Assembly (NCBI GenBank): GCA_021234155.1
Contig: JAJEKV010000054.1
Location: 1,587,933 to 1,651,932 of the forward strand
From: Isoetes taiwanensis
Lineage: Eukaryota > Streptophyta > Lycopodiopsida > Isoetales > Isoetaceae
DNA: 64,000 nt
Direction: 5' to 3'
Position 1 is the first letter of the stretch, and every line of letters starts with the position of its first letter. Both the position numbers and the translations under genes were made by a program. This document shows, one piece after another, positions 5,990 through 11,897 of the stretch. Below the pieces are notes generated by a model, which had not been told where the DNA came from, searched no databases, and worked only from the letters and a program-made list of their open reading frames with translations.

Positions 5990-6430
5990 ATGTAATTCAG
6001 AATGTCAAGAAAAACTTCTACATTAATAGCGTCCTGCATCTCCATAAGCTTTTCCCAAGGCACAGTGTCAAATGTCTTTTTCAAGTCCAAGAAGCATATA
6101 TACATTGACCTATTTATCCTCTTAGACTTCTCAATGGCCACACATATTGTTGCTAGATAGTCTATAGTAGAATAATTTGCACGAAAACTAGCTTGCCCCT
6201 TAGCTCTGGTATCTTGATCTCAGCCCATCTAGACTTTTTCTCCACCATCGTCCCAAAAAGCTTTTCCATAAGATTGCTTATCATGATTGTATGATAGTTG
6301 CTTGCGTTTGCTTTATTCCCGCCCTTTTAGTTAAGGACAATGCGACTTAATTGCCATTTCTTCAAAAATCATAGAGCCATAACTGCGTTAAACAACTCAA
6401 TAATCTCATCCATACTGCGTTCCTTGCCCA
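5990..6430 (-). pseudogene. LINE reverse transcriptase fragment
   Basis: Read on the minus strand, this stretch gives successive RT motifs of a non-LTR retrotransposon: GNKANASNYHTIMIS (6.28-6.33 kb; the family usually has a [DN]-x-NYRPI/RTIM block), then EKLFGT, then RWAEIKIPEL, then ASFRANYSTIDYL (the 'gFR...ST.D' block), then CFLDLKKTFDTVPWEKL (6.05-6.11 kb). The last is RT motif A, F-x-D-hhh-x-F-D. It holds the first catalytic Asp. The order and spacing fit the RT palm and fingers. It resembles the RT of copies A and B at 9-12 and 17-19 kb (NYRTIMV, STIDHIF, FVDFAKAF), so it is probably an older relative of that family. The YADD motif and both ends are missing. Confidence 0.75.
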
Positions 6431-6744
6431 TTTTGTCATCTCTGCACTAAGCCCAGCTATATCTGTGGCGCTTTCTTGAGATATCAGGAGATGGCGGATT
6501 CAACTGGCCTAATGGTGCTCAAGGATGAGAGTTGTAGCTAGGCATAATAGATGGTATGCACGTTCGTCCTAGACTTTCTGGCCTTTAGCGTACTAATTAC
6601 GTCCTTCAAATAATGTCCGATCATCCTCCCTAGATTATCACACACACTGATTCCTTGACTCGTCCTGGAGGAGGACAATTTTCAAGCTCAATGCTCAGTA
6701 TTTGGCTCATGAATTTCTTGAGGGCTGCAAGCAGGCTTGGGTAA

Positions 6745-8290
6745 CCACTGCCGAGCCCCATGAGAATGCTAGTGTCTTCTCTCGATAATGTGAAACCTCT
6801 TGCAAAGCAATTGGGTCGCGAGTGGATTCAACGAAAGAGGGCTATTTTGAAACACAAGTACGATGAGTTAGAGCAGCTCAGGATCCAAAATGTCAATCAT
6901 GCACGAGAGATGGAACTAATGAAATAGATTCAGGACCTTGAGGACGCAGAGATAAGAGTAGACAAAGGGAAAGCAGGTCTTTCTTGGCTTAGAGATGGAG
7001 ATACTTTTTTCAATTCTGATTGCTCAAAATGTCAAAATTTGGCTTTATCCTCTTTGTACTTCGAATGATCATCTTATTTTCCTCCCAAGCAGTTGAAGCA
7101 TTTTTTATCATCACACTTTAGTTCTCTTGTCTAGAATAAGTCTCTCCTGTTTGAGGTTGAGGCACTAGACGTTGTATTGTTTTTCAAGAAACCCACCCCC
7201 CTCCCCCCCAAAGTGACAATGCTTGGAAGCTCCATTCACCATTCGGGATCTCGAGGAGGCTATATTCCTCATTGCTAATGATAAGTGTCCAGGTAGGAAT
7301 GGCATTTCTGTGGAGTTCTTAGTGTCTCGTGGGAGTGGACATCTAACTTGCTTTGGCCAAGGGGGTTGCACATTTATAGTGCGTAAATAACATCAGCGAA
7401 CACTTTTAGGGGTTTTCTATTAGCATTTGCTTACGTATACATGCCAAAAATAATATGCAAGTATGGCCTTAGTTGCATGAAAAATATACTAGGGGGTATA
7501 GAATATGCATAAAAATATGTAAAAAAAGTTGAATATGTGAGGAGAAAACATATAAAATTTTACTATTTTCTATATAGAAATATTTTATGCAGTATACATG
7601 CAGAGGGATGGGTAGGATTATGAAAACGGGTTTTCCGTTACGAAAGTGATAAATAAAGGGTTTTTACCTGATCCCATCTTTGCAGATAACATCCAATATA
7701 CATATAGGTGAATCCCCCAGGGCTTTGGCAAGTATATGAAGATTTTTGCAATCTCAACTCCTTTAAAATCTTAAATACTAGCATCATCATGCTCATTCCA
7801 AAGGCCAAAGAGCCTTTGAAGATTTCTCATTGGAGGCCCATTACTCTTCTACAATGGATTACAAGATCATAGCCAAGGCATATACAGAGAAGTTGAAGTT
7901 CATATTGGGGGACTCCATTAGTCATAGCAGTTTGGTTGTTTGCCTGGACGCTATATCCTAGACAATGTAGCAACTATTAAAGGCTTGTATTGGGCACAAT
8001 ATACCAAGGAAACAACTTGTATTTCTGAAGCTTGACTTCATCAAAGCATATGACAATGTTTCTTGAACCTTTCGCATGCGTATTATGCATAAGCTGGAAT
8101 TCATACCAATCTTTTGTGAAATAGTTCGGAAGTTATTGAAGTCTGCAAAGGCAACCATCTTACTTCAAGGAGAGCCTTCCAGCATTTTTGACATGGGGAC
8201 AAGTATCAGGTAAGGATGTCCAATGCGCCTTTTCTTTTTAAGAGGGTGGCGGAGGTTTTAAGAGGTACTGTTGTTGCATCTTGATGAGGA
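6745..8290 (+). pseudogene. L1-like LINE ORF2 fragment, split by a DNA transposon
   Basis: The plus strand shows a decayed L1-type ORF2. A charged pre-RT segment (IQRKRAILKHKYDELEQLR, ~6.82-6.88 kb) leads to GLSWLRDGDTFF (~6.98 kb; usual form W-L-x-x-G-D-x-N-T-K-F-F). Next come DKCPGRNGISVEF (7.28-7.32 kb; usual form DKSPGPDG), MLIPKAKEPLKISHWRPITLL (7.79-7.85 kb), KIIAKAYTEKLK, LDFIKAYDNV (motif A, ~8.03-8.06 kb) and R-stop-GCP (8.21 kb; usual form RQGCPL). There are several stops and frameshifts, and no YxDD was found after 8.29 kb. The interval 7358-7721 is foreign. Without it and one copy of the 8-bp duplication, the frame reads straight from TSNLLWQV into YEDFCNLNSF and on to LIPK. Confidence 0.85.
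7358..7721. mobile_element. hAT-like non-autonomous DNA element (364 bp)
   Basis: An 8-bp direct repeat GCTTTGGC lies at 7350-7357 and again at 7722-7729. Between these copies the ends are imperfect inverted repeats: the left end reads CAAGGGGGTTGCACATTTAT and the reverse complement of the right end reads CCTGGGGGATTCACCTATAT. The interior is AT-rich and non-coding. An 8-bp target duplication and short imperfect inverted ends starting with C-A-purine are characteristic of the hAT superfamily; the size is that of a MITE. The insertion sits in an L1-like ORF2, and the LINE frame is continuous across the empty site. No transposase is encoded, so an autonomous partner elsewhere must be assumed. 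The assignment to hAT rests on duplication length and end sequence only. Confidence 0.8.
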
Positions 8291-9125: not shown

Positions 9126-9590
9126 GTGACACGGTATGGCCGGCAGCTGCTGTTGCTGGGCAGTATCTTTGACCTGGTCATTTGCAATGGGCTGGCACAG
9201 TGGCCGTCCTCCAGCCGCTTCACTTGTAGACAGGAGAACCAGGGGGGCGGCACCAGTGTGGTGGATTACGTGCTAGCAGACGAGCAATGCCTACACTTGA
9301 TCACTCGCTTCAGTGTCGGGACAGGTGGCCGGGACGAGGAAGTAGACTCCGACCATCAGCCCCTGTTCTTGCAGATAGATTGGCAGGCCAACCGAGCACC
9401 CATTGCCCCAACACCCCATGTACCACGGTTGCGTCTGGACTATGATCATGCGGCGGTCTATGCGAGGATGCTTGAGCATGAGCTGCCGGGAGTGCTGCAA
9501 CTCCCCACACTTCAACAAAGAGATGGCCCACCAAACCAGGCTCCGAGGGTAGGGGACGATGCTTTGGGAGAGGCCGCCGACGATCCATAG
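9126..9590 (+). pseudogene. LINE copy A endonuclease remnant
   Basis: A 154-codon open frame whose first ~85 residues form the C-terminal half of an exonuclease-endonuclease-phosphatase fold: DLVICNG, then a Ser/Gly-rich stretch, VVDYVLADE, and SDHQPLFLQIDW. In this family the SDH motif closes the active site that nicks target DNA before reverse transcription. The N-terminal half, with its metal-binding Asn and Glu, is absent because the element begins here. The remainder of the frame is linker. Confidence 0.75.
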
Positions 9591-11897
9591 GGGCTGCAAC
9601 CACCTTCCCCGCAATCACCGGGTTCGATGACGAATGTCGGAATCAAACGATGGCTCCGCCAAGTGCCGGACCCACCATTCGCCAAAAGCCGTCCGTCCAA
9701 TACCGCTCCTTCCTCAAGACCAAGAAAGCCGTGTATCTTAAGGAGCACCAAAGAATGATGTTTGGTCTTCTAGACCGCCACCCCGGGGCCTTCGAGAAAG
9801 GTCTTGAGTAAGCCTGCATGACCCACATGAAATATTACCCCTAACAATGGGTGAGATACTTGCAGCAGTATATGACCCAATGGGAAGCCGCACACCATTC
9901 TCCTCCATGACAGACCCACCTATCGGTCATTACCGAAGGGATGTCATAATGGGCCTGCAACGCCTCGCTAATCGGAAGGCGCAGATTTGGATGGTATGCA
10001 AAGAGCTTCTCAAGTGGGCGGGCCCCCAATGGTGCCTGGTTCTCACAAAGACTCTTCAACAGAGGGCATTGCAAGAAGGCTTCCCCGACCGGACTACCCG
10101 GTAGAGTTGTGCCCATATACAAAGCGGGGGACCCCCACCGTGACCAACTATCGTACCATTATGGTCGGATTACTGTCTTTGCCAAGTTGCTTTGCGGGAT
10201 TCTTGAGCGATTGACACTTTGGGCGAGGGATGGAGAAGTCTTGGGCTCTCGCAGCAAAGCTTCGCCCGGATTCTACTATTGACCATATCTTCACTCTGCG
10301 AACACTCATAGAGGATAGCCTAATCGGCGCCAGAATCCGGTGACTTTGTTGCTTTGTGGATTTCGCAAAGGCTTTTGACACACAAAGCCTCGGGATAAGT
10401 TGTGGGACAGATTGAGACAGACTAGGGACCCCGTCGACTTGCGAGAATGCTATATACGCATTCTATAATGAGGCTTTCTCTAGTCGCCTCACACCGCTTG
10501 TCGGGAGCCCATTGTTAGTAGCATTGGGGTGCGCCAGGGCTGCCCTCTATCCCCAGACGCTCTTCGGCTTGTACATTGACCAGCTAGAAGAATGGCTAGC
10601 CGAAAGCACCTGAGGGGGGCGCCAGTTGATGCACCACATAATCCGCAACTCATATATGCCGATGATGTTGACTCCGCGATATACCCCGGAGGACATGCAA
10701 CGCCACCGGATGCTTTGGACACTTTCTCGCCAATTCAATCGACATGAGAGTTAACTTGGCCAAGACAAGGGTGCTGCCGGTCCCATCATCCCGCACCCAC
10801 GCCTTCCCTCATTCACTTACCGTAAGGTGTAGTGGAGGTGGCTCGGGCCTTTATAAGTATTTGGGCATTGAGTTTTCTACTACCACACACCGGATGCATC
10901 CATCGTTACGGGTCACCGCAGTCCGGAAAGCCCTCAGATGCAATGCAAAACAACAAATACAAGGCGTAGTCAGATGCATGGGGTCACCAGCACACTTGTT
11001 CGTGGCCTTGGTTGAACCGGTCCTCCTCTATGGGGCGTAAGTGGGGGGCGGTGATATCCCTCACCACTTGGAACGATCTAGAGCAGTGTACGAAGGCCTT
11101 CTTGGCCCTAATCGGAGTGAAATCCACGGTCCCCATATCGATCTTGCTCCAGAGAGAAAGCTTCCTTCCATTACGAGGGTCAAGTACTGAACGTCACATT
11201 ATTTACTTCCGGAAGGTGGTGGCTATGGATGAAGCCCGGCTGCCCAACCTTGCTTTGGCAAGGCGATGGGCCCGCAGCGACTCAAAGCCCGGGCTGGAAA
11301 GACAAGCAAGCCCAATGGTTCTCGCTATGGAATGTGCAGCACACGATGTGGACCGGTGCATACACCGAAGGAACGCTACGCCCTTGAAGCAAAGATTTGA
11401 TGCTTGCTTCATGGCCAAGCTTTGGGATGCAGAGGCCCCGGCACATGTCAAGGTGGCAAATTATCGACAAAGAGTTAATCCCATGCTCACGAGGGGCCCA
11501 CACCACTACCGCGCGCACCCATCTACCCATGAAAAAGCATGGTGATTGCTTCCATTCGCGACAGTGCACACCACCTCCGCATTGAGACAGGGAGATGGAT
11601 TCGGGGGCCGCGTGCACGAGTCCGCCGCTGCCGCCAACAGGCGCCATTGAGGATGAAAGTCACGCCCTCCGCCTCGTCCGACGAGAGCATATCCGGCCTC
11701 TGTATGCTCTGCTAGTTAGTTAATGCCCCATCGCCTTGCATGAGCTAATCGAGCACGGCCTCTCAGAGGGGCTTGTTGGGATCAGACCGGAGGTAATGGA
11801 TACGCTGACTCGCTTATGCCCCCCTGTCTGACATTAACCTCAGTTGTACTTGTGATTATGTATATAACTGTGCAGTATGTCAGCATCCTTATTGCTA

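Follow-up and report, generated by a model that had tools for sequence, protein, structure and literature searches.

The window analysed here, a stretch of 64,000 nucleotides from the genome of Isoetes taiwanensis, contains a 364-bp non-coding element nested in the remains of a LINE (Table 1). The element is bracketed exactly by GCTTTGGC on both sides, its AT content is 67%, stops are present in each of its reading frames, and its tendency to fold into a hairpin is weak (z -1.75). Our analysis confirmed the 8-bp duplication and the 364-bp non-coding insert at 7350-7729, which an earlier note on this DNA had described together with imperfect inverted ends; the latter were borne out as well, with 10/14 matches. 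The terminal inverted repeat is imperfect in the consensus of the main family (10/14) and stronger in the sister family described below, and it exceeds chance, being equalled by 2 of 2000 shuffles of the main consensus and 1 of 2000 shuffles of the sister consensus. The element is short, non-coding and multi-copy, of uniform length and with fixed ends, as expected of a MITE, and the terminal inverted repeats that characterize MITEs (about 10 bp or more) are present in imperfect form.

Table 1. Features of the nested insertion, in window coordinates.
Feature	Position	Strand	Remarks
Host L1-like LINE, left part, decayed, limits approximate	6470..7357	+	paralog alignment (L001 631-1518)
Left copy of the 8-bp target-site duplication, GCTTTGGC	7350..7357	.	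duplication length tested on 30 copies
364-bp non-coding MITE, probably hAT-type	7358..7721	+	89% identity to the 365-bp family consensus
Left terminal inverted repeat, CAAGGGGGTTGCAC	7358..7371	+	
Right terminal inverted repeat, reverse complement CCTGGGGGATTCAC	7708..7721	-	10/14 matches versus the left end of the family consensus
Right copy of the 8-bp target-site duplication, GCTTTGGC	7722..7729	.	
Host LINE, right part, reverse-transcriptase start, limits approximate	7722..8255	+	LIPK at about 7792-7803

The I. taiwanensis genome contains dozens of copies of this MITE family. The window copy has at least 40 matches in its own genome (1.66 Gb), most of them at 76-85% identity and over nearly the whole element; further copies with the same ends, which the earlier note had named as a test of its reading, therefore exist at no fewer than 40 places. 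The 365-bp consensus, built from 30 copies, likewise finds at least 40 places when used as the query, at 84-91% identity. Most copies are 351-374 bp long with sharp ends, and the terminal patterns of the family have at least 52 left-end and at least 42 right-end matches within the allowed mismatches. Divergence from the consensus amounts to 36 of 363 positions (K2P 0.107) in the window copy and to K2P 0.09-0.19 in most of the others. Two copies (L036 and L044) share about 1.2 kb at 93% beyond the right end of the MITE, with the inner MITE part duplicated, and represent a larger repeat containing a MITE.

The length of the target-site duplication is a property of the family. Flank letters were compared at duplication lengths of 2-14 in 30 copies with both ends; a few of these go back to segmental duplication of a single insertion (such as L011/L022, L008/L013/L026 and L021/L041), and somewhat fewer than 30 sites are therefore independent. 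Flank identity was 0.588 at 8 bp versus 0.207-0.322 at 2-7 and 9-14 bp. A perfect 8-bp duplication is present in 9 of the 30 copies, all nine with different sequences, and flanks paired across different copies match at 8/8 positions in only 0.08%. Duplications of 8 bp in other copies, the second test proposed earlier, were thus found both here and in the sister family (11/12). Could the repeat around the insert in the window have arisen by chance, flanking unrelated decayed sequence and no mobile element? The window contains GCTTTGGC five times, against an expectation of about one, and a single 8-bp pair is therefore weak evidence when taken alone. However, the multi-copy family, its common ends, the family-wide 8-bp duplications and the empty sites described next refute a chance repeat, to which we assign a negligible probability.

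Homology to LINE paralogs spans about 6470-8255 of the window. The protein of a paralog matches LINE-1 ORF2 chains at an E-value of about 1e-8, and a LINE-1-related ORF2 reverse transcriptase of this kind identifies the host as an L1-like LINE, in line with the earlier description of an L1-like ORF2. In this segment the host resembles plant L1-type LINEs; it differs from them in that it consists of decayed fragments only, whose weak RVT_1 match scores below the Pfam cut-off. Two further LINE-like stretches were noticed by eye. A second reverse-transcriptase remnant (FLDLKKTFDTV) adjoins the host in the other orientation, at about 6050-6100 on the minus strand, and a decayed stretch of higher G+C lies at about 9140-10460 on the plus strand, apparently from a different LINE lineage.

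An empty-site query, made by fusing the LINE sequence on either side of the insert at its duplication, matched many LINE paralogs, and in 22 alignments the paralog crosses the junction with no insert and with the target present once; one paralog (L063) has exactly GCTTTGGC at the empty site. The MITE is absent from all LINE paralogs found at other loci. Because paralogs with empty sites exist and none of those found carries the MITE, the insertion postdates the LINE family and is confined to this one copy, and the order proposed earlier, LINE first and DNA element second, is upheld by paralogs with an uninterrupted target. The opposite course, in which the MITE already resided in an ancestral LINE and both were copied here in one retrotransposition, has a precedent of sorts in a LINE-like repeat that carries a 117-bp MITE piece elsewhere, in two copies. 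Such joint copying is improbable, since every other LINE locus found lacks the MITE at this site and these LINE flanks were not seen around any further MITE copy.

The reading frame of the host contributes less than had been thought. When the flanks are joined with one copy of GCTTTGGC removed, they read VSWEWTSNLLWQVYEDFCNLNSFKILNTSIIMLIPKAKEPLKISHWRPITLL in a single frame, as claimed in the earlier note, but its conclusion that excision restores the frame did not survive. Element and duplication together measure 372 bp (3 x 124), so the native LINE flanks already share a frame with the insert in place, and excising the MITE eliminates stop codons and repairs no frameshift. The host open reading frame is decayed on both sides, with a frameshift between KCPGRNGISVEFLVS and WEWTSN upstream of the insert and a stop after WITRS downstream. 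Because 372 is a multiple of three, the frame provides no independent test of the MITE boundaries; it is compatible with them without fixing them. Of the three independent lines once said to fix these boundaries, the one from the frame was rejected.

To which superfamily does the element belong? From the duplication length and the weak inverted repeat, hAT is the best assignment, likely but unproven, and 8-bp target-site duplications are present in both families. The AT-rich body with no coding capacity speaks for hAT as well. The ends of hAT elements are of the YARNG type, with A at position 2 and G at position 5. The left end, CAAGG, fits this pattern (A2 in 15/15, G5 in 13/15), and the right end departs from it (A2 in 0/15, G5 in 11/15), with C or T at position 2 in all 15 cases and CC at its start (reverse complement) versus the CA expected at hAT ends. 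The target preferences nTnnnnAn (Ac type) and nnnTAnnn (Buster type) mark subgroups of hAT and not the whole superfamily. Among 20 perfect duplications, nTnnnnAn occurs once and a central TA twice, and no preference is apparent; since no target preference has been described for the hAT group Tip (PMC3942097), the missing motif is compatible with hAT.

The right end without A at position 2, the missing target preference and the failure to see a transposase in the elements sampled would also suit a MITE of another superfamily with duplications of about 8 bp (P, Merlin, Novosib or atypical Mutator-like) that inserted into the LINE. However, the duplication is sharply 8 bp in two families with no 9-bp signal, which disfavors Mutator, and the left end matches the hAT pattern. 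Moreover, plant MITEs with 8-bp duplications are conventionally filed as hAT (PMC7385995), and this genome is rich in hAT domains, with 1152 dimerisation-domain candidates in a search directed at hAT. We therefore consider another superfamily unlikely. The designation hAT-like in the earlier note is an overstatement: its support comes from the 8-bp duplication and the weak ends, and no longer, transposase-encoding copy was found among the candidates sampled.

The closest parallels are BniHAT-1 and BniHAT-2 of Brassica nigra, which are also short, AT-rich, non-coding and multi-copy, have short terminal inverted repeats and 8-bp duplications, and were assigned to hAT from the duplication length (PMC7385995). 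They measure 673 and 666 bp, whereas the families described here are shorter (364 and 237 bp), and the terminal repeat of our main family is weaker (10/14). The derivatives of the Drosophila hAT element BuT2 are likewise short non-autonomous copies that keep the outer ends, and their 8-bp duplications differ from copy to copy but are identical on the two sides of each, hence they spread by transposition; for BuT2 the autonomous source is known (PMC3942097), in contrast to the families here, for which none was found among the candidates searched.

The variant CAAAATACATATAGGTGAATCCC is present in roughly one in three right-end matches, and one such locus (L094:1529-1765, on C1053) holds a different, 237-bp MITE flanked by a perfect TTTCATCC duplication. 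This copy, too, lies inside a LINE reverse-transcriptase region. The sister family has at least 40 copies in its own genome; at least 95 left and 107 right ends match within three mismatches, the right-end pattern also picking up some copies of the main family. Among 13 copies sampled, perfect 8-mers flank the element at 11/12 sites. The two families have about 63 bp on the left (75%) and 67 bp on the right (87%) in common. Copies of the sister family diverge from their consensus by 1-8%, the tightest by about 1%, and the family is younger than the main one. Because both ends and the 8-bp duplication are common to the two families, the simplest reading is that one transposase source moved both, the sister family more recently. 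The asymmetric ends (CA... / ...GG), the 8-bp duplications and the lack of an evident target motif might even reflect a transposase from a lineage that falls outside the hAT groups described so far and has been active until recently, given sister copies within about 1% of the consensus, but we regard such a lineage as a long shot.

Taken together, we hypothesize, with a probability of roughly 0.88, that a hAT-type MITE, mobilised in trans, inserted via an 8-bp staggered cut into a pre-existing L1-like LINE. A transposase supplied in trans would have moved this non-autonomous cut-and-paste element into a staggered cut inside the LINE already in the genome, and repair of the cut would have duplicated GCTTTGGC. 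The multi-copy family with common ends and 8-bp duplications, the empty sites and the private insertion are direct observations; membership in hAT and an unseen transposase source, presumably the one that also moved the sister family, are what we infer from them.

A search for this source, covering 150 of the 1152 hAT candidates and sampled long elements, revealed no transposase-bearing copy. No pair of a MITE end and one of the 150 scored dimerisation-domain hits lay within 10 kb in a comparison of positions only. Several candidates could be dismissed. A 2.7-kb 5'/3' pair at C1060 (L091) is a MITE interrupted by a non-coding stretch of 2.25 kb, and perfect 5' ends at C1027 and C1030 (L092 and L093) belong to a 117-bp MITE piece inside a LINE-like repeat. 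No hAT-like frame was present midway between the paired ends at C1045 (3.05 kb) and at C9 (5.4 kb; L107 and L108), or in the 340 bp upstream of the four-copy TATGCAAAATAGATATAGGCGAATCCCCTGGG variant at C1044 (L109). In L092 and L093, which share 95% identity across 565 bp, LINE-ORF1-like sequence is joined to the initial 117 bp of the MITE; apparently, a retrotransposon-like repeat has taken a MITE fragment along.

The nested insertion is ordinary genome history and leaves general understanding unchanged; the superfamily assignment is moderately secure. Its value is that of a neat case study, in which both the limits of a nested insertion and the order of events can be proved from a single genome. 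In addition, it brings to light a pair of related MITE families, one of them young, that would be useful as markers, and it makes the missing transposase source of both families a concrete search target.

Two clusters of end matches stand apart. Three identical left-end matches on one strand of C1089 (11217443, 11221381 and 11225339) are spaced 3.94 and 3.96 kb apart, which suggests a tandem array or clustered longer elements. Four identical copies of the divergent right end TATGCAAAATAGATATAGGCGAATCCCCTGGG occur on C601, C921, C1027 (6797834) and C1044 (1824108), possibly another young related family.
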